This document shows positions 17,190 to 28,828 of a stretch of 35,950 nt of DNA, in pieces. The notes under the pieces were generated by a model. That model was given only the letters and a program-made list of their open reading frames with translations, was not told where the DNA came from and searched no databases. The position numbers and the translations under genes were made by a program. Within the stretch, counting starts at the first letter, position 1, and each line of letters begins with the position of its first letter. This stretch comes from Crocinitomicaceae bacterium (GTDB taxonomy: Bacteria; Bacteroidota; Bacteroidia; Flavobacteriales_D; Crocinitomicaceae): the NCBI GenBank assembly GCA_020832365.1, contig JAFIEX010000008.1, positions 1 through 35,950 of the forward strand, in the 5' to 3' direction.

Positions 17190-17227
17190 GTTCATTCAAT
17201 TAATTGAAACGAAAAATTAGACATTAT

Positions 17228-18418
17228 ATGGAAGCGAAATTTTCGGCAAGAGTAAAGGACGTAATTAGTTTTAGTCGTGAAGAAGCTTTGCGCATAGGTA
17301 ATTCACACATTGGTGTGGAGCACTTACTATTGGGTATGCTTCGGGAGGGAGAAGGACTTGGGATTAGAATTTTAAAAGAGTTTAATCTAGACTTAAACGA
17401 TCTCCGAACAAAATTAGAACAATATTTAATAAAAAATACTACCAAACAGATTAATCAGGAGAACATTCCTCTGGTAAAACAAGCTGAGCGCGTATTAAAA
17501 GTGACTTATTTAGAAGCTAAATTATTCAAGAGTCCAGTTATCGGTACTGAGCATTTATTGTTATCTATCTTAAAGGAAGATAATAACCTTGCTTGTAAAA
17601 CACTAAATCGATATGGTATTATTTATGACAATGTAAAAGATGAATTAGAAGCAATGATAGAAGACGCTCAAACAAAAATGGAATTTCCTGGATCTTCGGA
17701 TGAAGGAGGAGATACAGGTTTTTCAGGAAGATCAGCACAAGGAGGAAGTGGAGGTCAACGCACTTCAGACGCAAAGTCTAAAACTCCTGTTTTAGATAAC
17801 TTCGGAAGAGATTTAACAAAATTAGCAGAGGCAGATAAGTTGGACCCCATTGTTGGGCGTGAAAAAGAAATAGAGCGTGTAAGTCAAATACTTTCTAGGC
17901 GTAAAAAGAATAATCCTATTTTAATAGGAGAGCCTGGAGTTGGGAAAAGTGCCATAGCAGAAGGATTAGCGCTTCGCATTGTTCAAAGAAAGGTTTCTCG
18001 AGTATTGTTCAATAAGCGTGTTGTTTCTTTGGATTTAGCCTCTTTAGTTGCAGGCACAAAATATCGTGGGCAATTCGAGGAAAGAATGAAAGCTGTAATG
18101 TCTGAAATAGAAAAAAACCCAGATATTATTTTGTTCATCGATGAAATTCATACTATAATTGGAGCAGGTGGAGCAAGTGGCTCATTGGATGCTTCCAATA
18201 TGTTTAAACCTGCATTGGCAAGGGGCGAACTGCAAGCAATCGGTGCAACAACGCTAGATGAATACAGACAATACATTGAAAAAGATGGCGCACTTGAAAG
18301 ACGTTTCCAAAAAGTAATTATTGAGCCAACTACAATTGAGGAAACTGAACAAATATTAAACAATATTAAAGAGCGCTACGAGGAACATCACAGTGTAACT
18401 TATACACCGAGGCTTTAA
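17228..18418 (+). pseudogene. clpC: ClpC ATPase, N-terminal part (Clp-N and D1) ending at a frameshift
   Basis: Clp-N repeats, Walker [15 protein letters not shown], Walker [16 protein letters not shown]; frame lost after [11 protein letters not shown] at 17228 is likelier than the TTG at 17204 in the ORF track. Confidence 0.85.
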
Positions 18419-19764
18419 AAGCCTGTGTTTCATTAACCAATAGATACATTTCTGATCGCCATTTACCTGATAAGGCAATTGATGCTTTAGATGAGGTGGG
18501 TTCTAGGGTGCACCTCACCAATATAAATGTACCGCAGGAAATTCTTGATCTTGAACAGCAAATTGAAGAATTCAAAGAAAAAAAGAATGCGGTAATCAAA
18601 GCACAGCAATATGAAAAAGCTGCTGAATTTAGAGATAAAGAAAAGCAATTACAAGAAAAGCTAGAAACGGAGAAACAAAAATGGGAAGAAGAAACTAAAG
18701 CCCATAGGGTTACTGTTACTGAAGAGCATGTTGCAGATGTTGTAGCGATGATGACTGGTATTCCTGTTCAAAGAATTGCAGAAAAGGAAAGTGGCAAATT
18801 AGCCAAAATGTCTGAAGAAATTAAAGGACAGGTTATTGGTCAAGATGAAGCAGTACAGAAGGTCGTTAAGGCTATTCAGCGCAATAGAGCAGGATTAAAA
18901 GACCCTAACAAACCCATAGGCTCATTCTTTTTCCTAGGACCAACAGGAGTTGGGAAAACACAATTAGCCAAAGTTTTAGCGCGTTACATGTTTGATACGG
19001 AAGATGCGCTTATTAGGGTTGACATGTCTGAATACATGGAAAAATTCTCTATTTCTAGATTAGTTGGAGCGCCTCCAGGTTATGTAGGTTACGAGGAGGG
19101 GGGACAGTTAACTGAAAAAGTTAGACGAAAGCCCTACTCCATTGTATTATTAGACGAAATTGAAAAAGCACATCCAGATGTATTCAATCTTTTGTTACAG
19201 GCATTGGATGATGGACACATGACTGATGGTCTTGGAAGAAAAATAGATTTTAAAAATACAATTATCATCATGACTTCCAACATTGGAGCTAGGCAACTAC
19301 AAGATTTTGGAACAGGTGTCGGCTTTGGAACTGCTGCTAAAGTTGCTGCTTCTGAAGATGATCAAAAAGCTGTAATTCAAAATGCGTTAAGAAAGGCTTT
19401 CTCTCCTGAATTTTTAAATAGGATTGACGATATGATTTTATTTAAGTCACTCTCTCGCGAATCTATACATTCTATTATCGATTTGGAGTTGAAAAGTTTA
19501 TACAAAAGAATTGAAGAGCTTGGTTACCTTATTAAAATGACGGATGAGGCTAAAGATTTTATTGTAGAAAAAGGTTACGATGAAAAATTTGGTGCTAGAC
19601 CTTTAAAAAGAGCTATTCAGAAATATGTTGAAGATCCGCTTGCGGAACAAATCATTAATGCAACGATTAAATCTGGAGACGCTATAATACTGTCTTTAAA
19701 TGAGTTAAAAGACGGACTAGATACATCTGTTGAAAAACCAAAGAAGTCTAAAAAAGAAGATTAA
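18409..19764 (+). pseudogene. clpC: ClpC ATPase, C-terminal part (D1 end, UVR, D2), -1 frame relative to the upstream part
   Basis: From 18409 the frame reads [36 protein letters not shown], continuing ClpC; UVR region; D2 Walker A GPTGVGKTQLAKVL. Confidence 0.85.
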
Positions 19765-22550: not shown

Positions 22551-24182
22551 ATGGTAACAATCATCAGTCTTTTTCTTATCTTTAGTGGGTTATTAGCTGC
22601 TATAGTGCATGCTAGAAATAATGAGGTAAATGTTCGCACTATTAATTATTTTATTTTTGGAATTGGCGCTGTTTTGCTGTCAGCAGATTTTTTCGAAATT
22701 GAAGGAGACCTCAATCCCTATTTATTCCCTTCTGTTCTAGTTTCAATTATTGCGATTCACTTTGTTATAAGTGAAATTACAAAACAGAAAACGAGTTTCT
22801 TTTGGATTTTCTTACCGATCATTTTCGCACTTCTTTTAGGTTATTTTTTCCCTTTTACCAGTTTTTCGTTTCTAGGATATTTCATTGATACAAATGAAGA
22901 AGTCTTACTTATTGCCTTGTTAGCATCAGTAACCCCTTTTCTAACCCACTTAGCTAAGCTTGGAATTAGTAACTTAGTAATTCGTTTTGGAAGTATAATT
23001 TGGGCTGAGAATGAAGAAAATTATTTAGAAAGTCTTGTGAGTTACGCATTTATTGGTGGTGTTGCAGCGCTAGGAACATTTTTAATTGGTCCTTTGGGTT
23101 TTATTATAGCTGCAACTTTTTACCTATCAGCAACATTTGTATCTCGAAACAAATTAGGTTTTAAAAATGATATTTTCCTTTCAGCTAGTGGAGCACTATG
23201 GCTAATTGTTTACACGATTTTATTGTTGCAACTTGGCGGCTTTAAGCAACTTAATTTCTTAAGAGGTGAAGTCCTTGAAGGAGCATTTGTCGCTGGGTTT
23301 ATGGTTATTGCTTATCACTTATTTTTACAGTTAGCGCGATTCAACCGAGGTAATTGGAAATATATATTTACTTTTTTAGCCTTACTATTACCCTTGCTAA
23401 GCGTATTAGTAATTGGATTTGCATACAATGCATTTGAGCGATTGGGAGGAGTTCTTTCTTTAGGGGGAATGCTTATTAGTATGGCTATTTTAAGCGTGAC
23501 ATTTGCTTTATTCAAAAACGCCAATTTTGTTCCATTAAAAATATTCTCTGTAGGATTGATTTTTTTTGTAACACCATTTATTTTACCAGTAGAGCAAGTA
23601 TCATCCATTTCATTGGAATCTTTAGGTATCAAACAAAGCGATACCGCAAAAGATGATGATAAAACAGTTTCCCTTGACTTCCAGGAAATACTGGGTAGTT
23701 GGTTAATAGATGAAGAGGTGTCTAAAGTGTTTTTTGAGCTTGGTCCAGAAGATGGCAGAACAAAAGGAGAGTTTAAAACTTTCCGCGGGGAAATGACAAT
23801 TAAAGAAGAAATAACAAATAGCAATATCACTGTAATTTTGCCTGTAAAAGCACTTACAACATATATTTCTGTGCGTGACCAAGAATTAATGACTGATGAG
23901 TATTTTGATGAGCAAAATTTTCCAGAAATGCAATTTCAGAGTAAAAAGTTGGTTAAAAAAGACACGCATTATGAGTGGGAAGGCTCGTTTACCATGCTAG
24001 GAATAACTAATCCGCTTACGGTGGAAATGTCGTTAATTGGTGTCGGTGAAGAAAATGGGCAGAAGGTAATCGTATTAAGTGGCTCTTCAAAATTAGATAG
24101 AACTACTTTTGGGATGAGCCCATCTAGTAAAATTGGCAACGTGGTCGATTTTAATTTTGATGTTAAAATGAACTTAGATTAA
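22551..24182 (+). CDS. polytopic membrane protein with C-terminal YceI-like domain
   Basis: About ten N-terminal hydrophobic segments; C-terminal YceI-like LMTDEYFDEQNFPEMQFQSKKL...YEWEGSFTMLGITNPLTVEMSL...LDRTTFGMS. Confidence 0.8.
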   Translation: MVTIISLFLIFSGLLAAIVHARNNEVNVRTINYFIFGIGAVLLSADFFEIEGDLNPYLFPSVLVSIIAIHFVISEITKQKTSFFWIFLPIIFALLLGYFFPFTSFSFLGYFIDTNEEVLLIALLASVTPFLTHLAKLGISNLVIRFGSIIWAENEENYLESLVSYAFIGGVAALGTFLIGPLGFIIAATFYLSATFVSRNKLGFKNDIFLSASGALWLIVYTILLLQLGGFKQLNFLRGEVLEGAFVAGFMVIAYHLFLQLARFNRGNWKYIFTFLALLLPLLSVLVIGFAYNAFERLGGVLSLGGMLISMAILSVTFALFKNANFVPLKIFSVGLIFFVTPFILPVEQVSSISLESLGIKQSDTAKDDDKTVSLDFQEILGSWLIDEEVSKVFFELGPEDGRTKGEFKTFRGEMTIKEEITNSNITVILPVKALTTYISVRDQELMTDEYFDEQNFPEMQFQSKKLVKKDTHYEWEGSFTMLGITNPLTVEMSLIGVGEENGQKVIVLSGSSKLDRTTFGMSPSSKIGNVVDFNFDVKMNLD

Positions 24183-24190
24183 ATTTGATT

Positions 24191-26419
24191 TTACTCAAAA
24201 TCTTTAAACTTTATTGACCGATTACCAATGGTAATAGAAGATTTATCTATGGTTTTATTCAATCTATCGATAACAAGTACAGCCTCCTCTCTGGTTAAAA
24301 TTTTTCCTGCCCAAATGTTAAGTTCATCCTGTAATTGCTTCATTACTGCATATGTACGATAGGCACTTAATAATTGATTACTGGTCCATTTGTATTGTTT
24401 CGCTTTCTCCTGAATAGTTTTATTGGGAGCAAGGAAATTCGATTTAACTGGATCCGTAAAACTTTGAACAATCCATTTTATTTCCCGATCTACTAATAGA
24501 AATACCCCTGTTGTTCTTAGAGATTGAAACTCCTCAGAAAACTTAGCATTGTTCCTCTCTTCCTTTGTTGATCCAGGATAATTGGCTATTTCATTTTGGG
24601 CAAGCGCAACGATCACACCATTTTTACCCATCTCTCCTATTCCTCCACCTTTTGCATTTATTTTAAAAGGTTTGTTTTTATCCAGCATTGCTTCAAAAAA
24701 TTGACGAATCGCCAAAGAATCGTTTTGTGTTAAAAGTGGTCCGTCCAATTCGAATTTATCTGAAGCAAATTGATCTATTATATTCAGTTGAATTTTCGCA
24801 TTGAAAAAGGGCTTAGCATCCAAAATATTAATGTGCAACATGACTTCGTCTACTTGGTCACTCGTATGACTATATGGTATAGCAATCAAACGAATTTCAA
24901 ATTGCTCGGATTGAGCAGATTGAGAAAAAGTAAAAGTTTGTGTAAGCAAATCAAAAGTAGCGCCATCTTCAAATGTAAAAAAACCGTCTTTTTCCCAAAA
25001 CGGCATCCACCTTCTGCCGATTAAATCTAGCATTCTACTTTTTTGTTGTTCTTTTTCTTGCTGTAAATCAATTGCAATTTGTTTTTCCTCTTTCAAAGTT
25101 TTTATTTTCTTTTCCAATGCTTTCAGTTGGTTATAATAACTGATTAGCTTTTCTTGACTTTTTTTACGATACTTTTTGCCTGATTCTGTTTTTAACTTTC
25201 TATCTTTCGTTGTTATCGGATTCATTCTCGCGTCACTAAGTTCTTTTTCTAGCTTGTTAATTTGAAGCAATTTATCTTTTCTTTTTTTGTCAGTATATTG
25301 AATTTGGTAATCATACCCTCGTTTACCACTAATTTTTTCTTCCAAAACGTTTATATCAAGTTGCACCCTATTTATAAAAGTATAATAGGTAGCCTTTCCA
25401 GTGAAACTAGAATCAGGGGATAAAAAACGAGACTCTGTTGAACCAAAAAGAGGATAACTCCAACCATTTTTTTCAATTACTACTGTTGTTTGTTTTTCGC
25501 TATTATATCCCCAAACATCTAAATGTACCTTGGTAACCCTCTCCTCTCCGAAAGTTTCAAAATTGCGAATGGCATATCTAAGCGGTTCAATTTTCTCCTT
25601 ATTCTTTTTCTTTTTCTCGTCTAGAATAATTTGCGTATCGTAGGGAAATAATCCAACGGCTTTAGGGAGTCCTTTGTTCCATCTGCCTCTCTCATCTTTT
25701 TCGCGTTCCTCAAAAAGTCCCGAAGTACTAGAACCATCACCAGCAGCAACCAAAACATTTATAAAAAGATCTGCTTGTCCGCCAAGAGAAAGAAATATTT
25801 CCTTAGCGCGATTTTCAACAAAAGCATTTGTAGCGTAATTAAATGCTTCAATTACTTGCCTTCTCTCTTGAATTGTCCATTTGCCAAATCCATCTAACAT
25901 AGCCAATCGGTCATTGAATGCTAAACTTGGGTTCCAAATATTGATCAACTTAGGATTTATTTCCAATTTATCATCTTTTCTTCTTATCGCAACTTCAGGT
26001 AACTGAGAAAGAATTTCCTCTTCAAAGCGATTAAATGCTCCAGACAAACCTTCTTTTTCTAAATTATTTTTACGGTATGCATGCAAAAGTTTGTTTAACT
26101 CCCATACTGCTTGTTTATTGGCAGCCTCAGCCAAAACTCCTTTTGGAGCCTTACTAATCTCGGAGGATAAAATCTTCAGTAAGGCAGGTTCGTTAATGAT
26201 TAAAAGCTCGATTGAATCATAATTGATTTCACCATTTGGAAGGTAGATCATGGGGCCTCGATAGTCCAAATATCTTCCTATGTTTAACTCTAAGATAGGA
26301 CTTTTCCTAACTGTATGGAATAGATAGGCCTTATCATTACCTGATAGAAAATGATCTTCTTGTGAAAAAGAACAAAAAACGATTAGTAAGTATAAAAGAA
26401 AAATGTAAAACTTTGTCAT
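24191..26419 (-). CDS. large secreted hypothetical protein with lysine-rich coiled-coil region
   Basis: Start at MTKFYIFLLYLLIVFCSFSQ (26419) gives a clean signal peptide; charged heptad-like segment LEKKIKTLKEEKQIAIDLQQEKEQQKS. Confidence 0.75.
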   Translation of the reverse strand: MTKFYIFLLYLLIVFCSFSQEDHFLSGNDKAYLFHTVRKSPILELNIGRYLDYRGPMIYLPNGEINYDSIELLIINEPALLKILSSEISKAPKGVLAEAANKQAVWELNKLLHAYRKNNLEKEGLSGAFNRFEEEILSQLPEVAIRRKDDKLEINPKLINIWNPSLAFNDRLAMLDGFGKWTIQERRQVIEAFNYATNAFVENRAKEIFLSLGGQADLFINVLVAAGDGSSTSGLFEEREKDERGRWNKGLPKAVGLFPYDTQIILDEKKKKNKEKIEPLRYAIRNFETFGEERVTKVHLDVWGYNSEKQTTVVIEKNGWSYPLFGSTESRFLSPDSSFTGKATYYTFINRVQLDINVLEEKISGKRGYDYQIQYTDKKRKDKLLQINKLEKELSDARMNPITTKDRKLKTESGKKYRKKSQEKLISYYNQLKALEKKIKTLKEEKQIAIDLQQEKEQQKSRMLDLIGRRWMPFWEKDGFFTFEDGATFDLLTQTFTFSQSAQSEQFEIRLIAIPYSHTSDQVDEVMLHINILDAKPFFNAKIQLNIIDQFASDKFELDGPLLTQNDSLAIRQFFEAMLDKNKPFKINAKGGGIGEMGKNGVIVALAQNEIANYPGSTKEERNNAKFSEEFQSLRTTGVFLLVDREIKWIVQSFTDPVKSNFLAPNKTIQEKAKQYKWTSNQLLSAYRTYAVMKQLQDELNIWAGKILTREEAVLVIDRLNKTIDKSSITIGNRSIKFKDFE

Positions 26420-26613
26420 AATATATTTTTGACCGGTTGTATAACACAAGAAAACCAATTAGTTACGATGAAACTATAAAACAAAGTTGTTGATTTAATT
26501 AAAATAAAAAACTCATCCTAATTAATAGTTTTCAACTAATGTTAGTGAATCAAAAGATTTAATTTAGTTAAAGATGAATATTTTCTAAAGAAAACTATTA
26601 AATTTAACAACGA

Positions 26614-28293
26614 ATGGAGCGATTTATCAACATAGTGCTATTAGATAAAGAAGAAAAACATCTTCATGCGCTACAACTTATTTTAAGGGGTTCGGGGAAT
26701 AATGTGAGTGTTGCAGATTCGACAAGTGAACTAATTAAGTTGGTTAGTAAAAAACATGTAGGTATCGTTTTCATAAATATGGATTTATTAAAAAGCCAAG
26801 ATAAAGATTTAATTGAAATAGTTAAAAAGAAGACCATTTCAGCCGCGACACACGTTATCATTATTGCTGACTCTAATGACAGTGCGTCTAAATTGATTAA
26901 AGGATTGAAATTCGGTGCGGCGGATTTTGTTGTATATCCATTCCATCCAAACCTCGTTAAAGCCAAGGTAGATGTATTAAAAAATTTATATTTCAAAGAT
27001 GTTCGAATCATGCAGTTGCTCAAAAATATTTTCCCAGAGCAAGTGCTTTTAGAGTTAGATAAAACAGGAAGATTTAAGCCGCGAAGAAATGAAAATGCAA
27101 CAGTTTTGTTCACCGATTTTATTGGTTTCTCACAACTATCAAAAACAATGAAACCATTAGAGATTGTTGCTGAATTAGATTTTTTCTTTAATAAATTCGA
27201 TGAAATTGTTAAACGCTACAAGTTAGAAAAAATAAAAACAATTGGAGATGCATACATGTGTATTTCAGGGGTTAATGATGACAATGGCTTGCCAGAGGTT
27301 AGGGCTACATTAGCTGCTATTGAGATGCGTAATTTTGTGCAATCAAAAATGAAAAAAAAGCCCAATTGGAAAATACGCATTGGGTTGCATGCTGGCCCGC
27401 TGGTCGCTGGAATAATTGGAAGCAATAAAATGACTTTCGATGTATGGGGAGACACGGTAAATATCGCATCTAGAATAGAGCATTCTGCTGAAAATAATCA
27501 AATTGCCATTTCAACAGAAATAGCTCATAGAATAAGTGATTATATTAATATAGCCTATCAAGGAAAAAGAGAAATTAAACATGGGGCAAAGCTAGAGGTG
27601 TTTAAAGTTTTGGATATAAAAGAGGATTGGTCATTGTTTCAAGAAGGATTACTCCCAAATAGTAAACTTCGAGAAAAGTGCGACTTACAGGGTATGGATT
27701 TTGATCACGCTAAAAGGTATATCGTAAAGAAACTGCAACGCAACCTACCGAAGCACTATTTCTATCATTCGCATCGTCATACTTTGAATGTTGAGAAATC
27801 TGCGGTTCGTATTGCGAAGCTCGAAGGAGTTAACCGATCAGATATATTACTACTTCGAACTGCTTGTTTATTGCATGATGTTGGATACATCTTTGAATAC
27901 CAATTCAATGAAAGCCTTTCTATTGAATTTGCAAAAGAAAAGCTTCCTAAATTTGGTTATTCAAATGAAGAGATTGAAGTAATATGCAAAATGATTAATG
28001 CCACAAAATTAGACGTGGAGCCAGTTAGTTTATTGGAAAAAATAATATGTGACGCAGATCATGACTATCTCGGTCGTGCTGACTATCAAATAATCGCTAA
28101 TGATCTTAGAAAAGAGCTGGAAGCAATTGGAAAATTCATGAGTGATCTTGAATGGGTTGATTTTCAATTAGACTTTTTGCAAAAACACAATTTCTATACA
28201 AATACAGCGCAAAATATTAGAGGAGCTGGAAAAAAAAATAGAATTCAGGATTTGTTATTCTTGAAAGAGGAACTAAAAAGAAAACATAGCTAA
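26614..28293 (+). CDS. degenerate receiver domain + class III adenylate cyclase + HD domain protein
   Basis: Receiver-like N-terminus; cyclase NATVLFTDFIGFSQLSKTM, KIKTIGDAYMCISG, TFDVWGDTVNIASRIE; HD-type HRHT...LLHDVGY...CDADHDYLG. Confidence 0.9.
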   Translation: MERFINIVLLDKEEKHLHALQLILRGSGNNVSVADSTSELIKLVSKKHVGIVFINMDLLKSQDKDLIEIVKKKTISAATHVIIIADSNDSASKLIKGLKFGAADFVVYPFHPNLVKAKVDVLKNLYFKDVRIMQLLKNIFPEQVLLELDKTGRFKPRRNENATVLFTDFIGFSQLSKTMKPLEIVAELDFFFNKFDEIVKRYKLEKIKTIGDAYMCISGVNDDNGLPEVRATLAAIEMRNFVQSKMKKKPNWKIRIGLHAGPLVAGIIGSNKMTFDVWGDTVNIASRIEHSAENNQIAISTEIAHRISDYINIAYQGKREIKHGAKLEVFKVLDIKEDWSLFQEGLLPNSKLREKCDLQGMDFDHAKRYIVKKLQRNLPKHYFYHSHRHTLNVEKSAVRIAKLEGVNRSDILLLRTACLLHDVGYIFEYQFNESLSIEFAKEKLPKFGYSNEEIEVICKMINATKLDVEPVSLLEKIICDADHDYLGRADYQIIANDLRKELEAIGKFMSDLEWVDFQLDFLQKHNFYTNTAQNIRGAGKKNRIQDLLFLKEELKRKHS

Positions 28294-28294
28294 C

Positions 28295-28828
28295 TTATTG
28301 ATTTTGATACATTTCATGGTATTTTTTGGTGAGGTAAGCGAGTAAAACTCTCATGCTATCGAAAGCCTCCTCAGTTGCGTTTGAAATAGTTTGTCCTTTC
28401 ATCTTAAATAAAAGCTTCATGTATAAGGCATTTAAACAAACTTCAACAGGATGAATATTCCCAAGGTCACTTTTCGCTCTAAAAGCTGATATGTGCTGAT
28501 CTGCTCGCGCATTCAAATCTTTGTACTTTTCATCATTGAGCACAGTCAGTAAGGTATTGTGTAAATAAATTAATTCATTGGTTACTTCAAGAACTTCAGA
28601 AACATGCCCTTTCTTTTCGAGTTTGTTGGTTTTCATTTCTGCAACTAAAGAACTGTACCATTCTATCATGGTGGGCATTAAAGATGGGCTTGCTACTTGC
28701 GGCGCAATGAATTCATTTTCTATACGACTTATATCAAAATCAAATGATCTCAATAAGTCCTCAATTTGATACATCAATATCAAAAACTCAGCAACATTTT
28801 TTTTCTTTTTTTCTTGAATTATAAACAT
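28295..28828 (-). CDS. DUF4924 family protein
   Basis: FIIQEKKKKNVAEFLILMYQIEDLLRSFDFD N-terminus resembles this Bacteroidetes family. Confidence 0.65.
   Translation of the reverse strand: MFIIQEKKKKNVAEFLILMYQIEDLLRSFDFDISRIENEFIAPQVASPSLMPTMIEWYSSLVAEMKTNKLEKKGHVSEVLEVTNELIYLHNTLLTVLNDEKYKDLNARADQHISAFRAKSDLGNIHPVEVCLNALYMKLLFKMKGQTISNATEEAFDSMRVLLAYLTKKYHEMYQNQ

Follow-up and report, generated by a model that had tools for sequence, protein, structure and literature searches.

The receiver-cyclase-HD gene and its surroundings

The window analysed here is a 35,950-nucleotide stretch of DNA from a Crocinitomicaceae bacterium (positions 1 to 35,950 of contig JAFIEX010000008.1, assembly GCA_020832365.1). 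A first-pass annotation made from the sequence alone had proposed that one of its genes joins a receiver-like domain, a class III cyclase and an HD domain in a single protein (Table 1). Two of the checks that the annotation had named, a Pfam search and structure prediction, agree with this proposal. The 559-residue protein matches Response_reg at residues 7-119 (38.3 bits, cut-off 30.2), Guanylate_cyc at residues 157-328 (143.8 bits) and HD at residues 388-483 (41.3 bits), each above the curated cut-off, and folds were predicted for both the receiver and the HD domain. The receiver is connected to the cyclase by a helix and an LLxNIFP segment (residues 112-154) which are well conserved among orthologs. 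The upstream gene (24191-26458) points away from the receiver-cyclase-HD gene, and the downstream DUF4924 gene (28295-28828) converges on it, ending 2 bases past its stop codon; the receiver-cyclase-HD gene is a single-gene unit.

Two other observations concern the window. A ClpC-type chaperone (Clp_N, AAA, AAA_2 and D2-small) is split over two forward-strand ORFs in different frames (17204-18418 and 18496-19764), the second frame being open upstream of its listed start, which indicates a frameshift or an assembly error. A further forward-strand gene (22551-24182) encodes a putative multi-spanning membrane protein with a YceI-like domain at its C terminus.

Table 1. Coordinates of the receiver-cyclase-HD gene, its predicted domains and its diagnostic residues in the window
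Feature	Position	Strand	Basis
Receiver-cyclase-HD gene	26614..28293	+	ATG start, 559-aa ORF
Pseudo-receiver domain, residues 6-120	26629..26973	+	Pfam Response_reg; predicted beta-alpha fold
Asn55 codon, phospho-acceptor position	26776..26778	+	38-ortholog alignment: Asn 24, Asp 8, Ser 6
Tyr108 codon, position of the conserved receiver Lys	26935..26937	+	38 orthologs: Lys 17, twelve residue types in total
Connecting helix and cyclase-transducer-like segment LLKNIFPEQVLLEL, residues 112-154	26947..27075	+	Predicted helix 112-139, 142-151
Class III adenylate cyclase catalytic domain (predicted), residues 155-335	27076..27618	+	Pfam; invariant residues; Foldseek
HD domain, PDE-like, residues 361-547	27694..28254	+	Pfam HD; model pLDDT 96; Foldseek
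Y384-H385-xxx-H389, class I PDE-like YHxxxH motif	27763..27780	+	Y384, H385 and H389 invariant in 37
H421-D422, HD metal motif	27874..27879	+	Invariant
D480-A-D482, distal metal-binding aspartate	28051..28059	+	Invariant
Q518 in QLDFL	28165..28167	+	Invariant; resemblance to the purine-contacting Gln of PDEs by motif only

Distribution of the three-domain fusion

Orthologs were sought in genome contigs with an alignment as the query, which found relatives where a single-protein query gave no matches; 38 distinct orthologs, those of named loci among them, were aligned. Among 59 relatives sampled, the full-length protein is present in 22 of the 35 genomes of the same family, three more of which carry partial or split copies, and in two genomes from one other family of the order. 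The nearest named relatives are Fluviicola, Crocinitomix and other Crocinitomicaceae bins. The matches listed for 396 genomes spread across the phylum include no other full-length fusion, a basis on which rare cases could be missed; receiver-cyclase proteins without an HD domain are common in the same sample. The architecture is thus conserved in part of the Flavobacteriales, and a general spread over the Bacteroidetes, the range in which the first-pass annotation had suggested looking, was not borne out. The neighbourhoods of 20 orthologs revealed local synteny only, with no partner gene conserved across genera, so that no pathway can be named from gene context. We found no description of a bacterial cyclase-HD fusion in the open-access literature searched; as most subscription papers lie outside it, this is weak evidence of absence.

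Conservation of the cyclase domain

The cyclase carries the residue set of class III adenylate cyclases: the metal-binding pair D168 and D212, the adenine-selecting K208 and D276, and the transition-state residues N283 and R287. The metal-binding aspartates and the Lys/Asp pair for ATP specificity, both of which had been read from the sequence initially, are invariant in the 38 orthologs, as is N283; R287 is found in 37 of 38 (Ile in one). The best Foldseek matches of the domain are adenylate and guanylate cyclases, with TM scores of up to 0.9 on the target. By its residues, the domain appears to be an intact cyclase of the adenylate type. Elsewhere in the genome of the window there are cyclic-nucleotide parts, comprising three class III cyclases in all and three cNMP-domain proteins, one of which is clearly Crp-like (a cNMP domain with an HTH); no class I or class II PDE was found in this genome by Pfam.

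Pycsar systems consist of a PycC cyclase adjoining a PycTM or PycTIR effector, and their antiphage signals are cCMP and cUMP. Membership of the present gene in this group was considered and rejected: PycC profiles reach at most 55.6 bits, as against 143.8 bits for Guanylate_cyc, the ATP residues are kept, and the scanned flanking genes include no effector.

Probable decay of the receiver domain

A phosphorylatable receiver has an acceptor Asp, a Lys, a Thr/Ser and two acidic residues. We found that four of these five phosphotransfer residues have been lost from this copy (Asn55 at the acceptor, Lys12 at the second acidic position, Ala85 at the Thr/Ser and Tyr108 at the Lys), leaving D11 as the sole remaining pocket residue. 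The initial reading of Asn55 as occupying the phospho-acceptor position holds in the alignment, where it falls in the acceptor column, and in the Lys region, read as VVYPF, the conserved position is indeed Tyr108. With a Response_reg match above cut-off, a predicted fold and Asn55, the domain has the features of an aspartate-less pseudo-receiver. It is the least conserved of the three domains (mean identity of this copy to its orthologs 32%, compared with 50% for the cyclase and 48% for the HD domain), yet it has been retained and keeps its predicted fold.

The orthologs suggest how this state arose. In a tree built without the receiver, the earliest-branching pair (L028 and L029) retains the Asp, the Lys and the two acidic residues of a canonical receiver, which makes it most likely that the receiver decayed from a working, phosphorylatable one; parsimony on the same tree requires at least 10 changes at position 55. 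As position 55 is restricted to Asn, Ser or Asp while position 108 drifts freely, a small polar residue here may have a structural role, as in the RitR receiver, where Asn53 hydrogen-bonds within the pocket (PMC4395418). One set of closely related copies, L017 and L019/L042, differs by Asn or Asp at position 55 with Lys108 kept, and forms a natural comparison pair.

We consider it very improbable that the receiver is still regulated in the two-component way, for instance through Asp57 or a partner, and that the protein works as a usual response regulator whose output is a cyclase. Asp55 is kept in eight of the 38 orthologs and Asp55 together with Lys108 in five, and in the L172 and L163 clusters receiver, receiver-cyclase and HD genes lie together, all of which would fit such regulation. 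It would also fit the acidic residue two positions past Asn55 (Asp in 23 and Glu in seven orthologs, or 30 of 38), which is what we found on the question, raised by the first-pass annotation, of a conserved acceptor Asp nearby. In known receivers, however, the acceptor lies elsewhere than at Asp57, and 15 orthologs have Glu, Ser, Gln, Asn or Gly at this place; Asp57 or Glu57 may have an unusual role. Further evidence against two-component control comes from this copy, in which other residues stand in for the acceptor Asp, the Lys, the Thr/Ser and one of the acidic residues, and from the want of a constant partner gene. The claim that the protein is not controlled by a histidine kinase thus stands for this copy, whose pocket residues are lost, but not for the family, given the orthologs with Asp, those with both Asp and Lys, and the canonical L028/L029 pair.

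Residues and fold of the HD domain

Residue counts for the HD domain cover the 37 of 38 orthologs that reach this region. Fourteen residues are invariant among them: Y384, H385, H389, H421, D422, N432, E433, T464, D480, D482, R488, Q518, H525 and R536. The H...HD...D metal site of the HD superfamily, which the first reading had recognised, is complete (H389, H421-D422 and D480), and the invariance of the metal residues together with H385, N432, E433, T464, R488 and Q518 points to a catalytic rather than a relict domain. The dinuclear HD-GYP or PgpH type of c-di-NMP phosphodiesterase was rejected: the extended H...HD...H...HH...D motif is absent, and the stretch from D422 to D480 has no conserved His, which makes this type unlikely under the motif described in PMC8177086.

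Comparisons of fold and of sequence relate the domain to two groups of enzymes. The best Foldseek match of the HD model is YpgQ (TM 0.66-0.73), specifically YpgQ with ADP, with other HD hydrolases of this kind also ahead of a long series of class I PDEs, including human PDE5, PDE10 and PDE4 (TM on query 0.56-0.68). A class I PDE-like fold is accompanied by an invariant YHxxxH...HD...D motif; we take YH-xxx-H to be the class I PDE form and HDxxH to be that of YpgQ-like proteins. At what is presumably the Arg position of the YpgQ-like HxxRV motif, most members have Asn. The HD sequence alone matches PDE9A (E = 5e-4) in two short stretches, the first slightly out of register, and a profile of 31 relatives matches YedJ (3gw7), 2pq7, 3djb and YpgQ (5dqv) first in the PDB and PDE5 and PDE9 weakly. 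Matches to repeat proteins and EF-hands in the PDB searches were treated as chance or low-complexity. Pfam reports HD, and not PDEase_I (PF00233), for the 559-residue protein; in relatives, the PF00233 match is largely confined to the first 46-70 positions of the profile and nearly always falls short of the cut-off, as does that of one family member at 7e-4. Even so, five of the seven PDEase_I matches in the 396 genomes are members of this HD family, beyond which there is almost no class I PDE signal in the Bacteroidota sample.

This kind of domain can hydrolyse cyclic mononucleotides, since the plant YpgQ-like HD proteins ATCN-PDE1 and BDPDE1 act on cGMP and cAMP (PMC8431786). YpgQ, by contrast, is a (d)NTP pyrophosphohydrolase with a mononuclear H...HD...D site (PMC8177086). 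As YpgQ cleaves (d)NTPs and the closest PDB profile matches are YedJ and YpgQ, the assignment of a PDE role to the HD domain rests on weak similarity, fold and association with cyclases.

Association of the HD family with cyclases

The HD domain also exists by itself or joined to other modules, and at 11 of 37 loci of this unfused form a class III cyclase lies within 6 kb of the HD gene, as compared with 0.33 expected (P about 1e-14); by genus the association is seen in nine of 26, as compared with 0.28 expected, the genera not being fully independent. The loci were chosen by similarity to the HD part, and the expectation follows from how many cyclases each genome has. At L166 the HD gene was confirmed; L150 and L161 owe their inclusion to the HD match, although their neighbouring cyclases had come to notice before retrieval; and the cyclase counted at L155 is weak, PycC-like and 4.5 kb from the HD gene.

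The association takes several forms. Receiver, receiver-cyclase and HD genes occur together in several genomes of the same class (L162, L163, L165 and L172), and these gene sets are the fused protein taken apart; at L178, two cyclase genes and an HD gene stand in a row. A second fusion of about 1300 residues, in which a propeller/Y_Y_Y sensor precedes cyclase and HD domains, occurs in most of the family's genomes, and the cyclase-HD core exists also as a 460-residue short form. In the genome of the window, the sensor-cyclase-HD copies are interrupted where contigs C229, C294 and C264 end. On these contigs (L002, L004 and L003, respectively, of genome G000), two different sensor-cyclase genes run into the same terminal sequence at a contig end, and one HD piece begins at such an end; a repeated cyclase-HD region broke the assembly. 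Taken with the PDE-like fold, fusion and gene neighbourhood link the HD family to cyclases, a link that lay beyond the reach of the first reading.

Members of the HD family are also fused to other modules. They are N-terminal in proteins ending in PycTM (profile match 7e-33; L151 5902-7071, L152 5902-7098 and L155 5286-6497), and are joined to a YitT/DUF2179 membrane protein (L161, L162 and L172) or to TPR proteins (L170 and L177). In the proteins of L161, L162 and L172, a five-TM YitT part and DUF2179 follow the HD domain, making each a candidate cyclic-nucleotide-controlled membrane protein. At L161, L162, L165 and L172, the HD protein encoded close to the class III cyclase has 486 residues.

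These fusions bear on what the HD domain does. Fusion to modules that lack a cyclase would suit a cyclic-nucleotide sensor, which would bind cAMP with slow or no hydrolysis and feed back allosterically on the cyclase; we regard this as improbable, because 37 orthologs share every metal-binding residue and the polar residues around them without change, which exceeds what the mere binding of a ligand should require. Somewhat less improbable, and still unlikely, is a YpgQ/YedJ-like (pyro)phosphohydrolase, whose action on NTPs, dNTPs or alarmones would control the substrate of the cyclase or couple cAMP to nucleotide status. The PDB profile matches, the top fold match to ADP-bound YpgQ and the cleavage of NTPs and dNTPs by YpgQ at the same mononuclear site favour this explanation, but the partners of the family, namely several types of cyclase, fused or adjacent, and Pycsar TM effectors, suggest a cyclic mononucleotide; the Asn that most members have at the presumed Arg position of the HxxRV motif likewise speaks against this explanation.

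A putative enzyme of cAMP turnover

The reading that we prefer, with a probability of roughly 0.5, is that the protein is a soluble bifunctional enzyme of cAMP turnover, in which a cyclase and an HD domain hydrolysing cyclic mononucleotides are balanced by the receiver. From knowledge of the family, the class III domain would homodimerise and convert ATP to cAMP. The HD domain fused to it, which is related to both YpgQ-type enzymes and class I PDEs, would hydrolyse a 3',5'-cyclic nucleotide, with cAMP from its own cyclase as the likeliest substrate; on the evidence of motif, fold and association, we consider hydrolysis of cAMP or another cNMP by this domain an even bet. Synthesis and hydrolysis in one chain would need regulation. 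The receiver fold, most likely once a phosphorylated switch, may in this copy serve as a phosphorylation-independent module for dimerisation or protein binding, and might use the long connecting helix to set the balance of the two activities. This is a guess in line with known pseudo-receivers (PMC12632262). We infer that the two activities could coexist and that the protein may be a self-limiting second-messenger protein, as first suggested.

For the phylum, we tentatively propose, at somewhat less than even odds, that this HD family is the missing cyclic-mononucleotide PDE of the Bacteroidota, which seemingly lack class I PDEs; that it was fused behind a cyclase in the Crocinitomicaceae as a one-chain cAMP synthase/hydrolase balanced by a pseudo-receiver; and that it was reused before Pycsar membrane effectors. 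If so, the conserved fused pair and the widespread unfused form near cyclases would name a likely off switch for cyclic nucleotides in this phylum. The HD-PycTM fusions further prompt the question of whether the HD domain serves to sense or to remove cCMP and cUMP, the antiphage signals.

Comparison with known systems

With Pycsar the protein shares a cyclase of class III type, and HD relatives are N-terminal in HD-PycTM proteins; it differs in keeping the ATP-selecting residue pair and in having no effector gene among its scanned neighbours. The aspartate-less receiver of RitR (PMC4395418; PMC12632262) likewise has an Asn (Asn53) at the phospho-acceptor position of a folded receiver, but RitR is a response regulator of a different kind, whereas here the output is predicted to be an enzyme pair. 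In receiver-class III cyclases (CyaC type and the REC-AC proteins of Bacteroidota), a receiver also precedes the cyclase via a helical linker; these proteins are without an HD domain, and their receivers score 76-85 bits (L163 and L172) compared with 38 here.

The HD part resembles YpgQ-like HD proteins (ATCN-PDE1 and BDPDE1, PMC8431786; B. subtilis YpgQ) in its fold and its mononuclear-type H...HD...D site. Those proteins stand alone, however, and YpgQ acts on NTPs and dNTPs, while the present domain has the class I PDE-like YHxxxH.

In overall logic, the counterpart is CAPE (combined adenylyl cyclase with phosphodiesterase) of Marchantia and other streptophytes (PMC5159850, PMC8115329), in which a class III adenylate cyclase and an HD-superfamily cNMP PDE occur in one chain; in the present protein both kinds of domain are present, the PDE role being putative. 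In both, the level of cAMP could be set by making and hydrolysing it in the same protein. CAPE is large and probably membrane-bound, with an N-terminal class I PDE and a C-terminal cyclase, whereas the present protein is bacterial, is without a membrane segment, has the order receiver-cyclase-HD and uses a smaller, YpgQ-like HD family. A bacterial cyclase-phosphodiesterase fusion would parallel both the plant CAPE proteins and the GGDEF-EAL proteins of cyclic di-GMP signalling.
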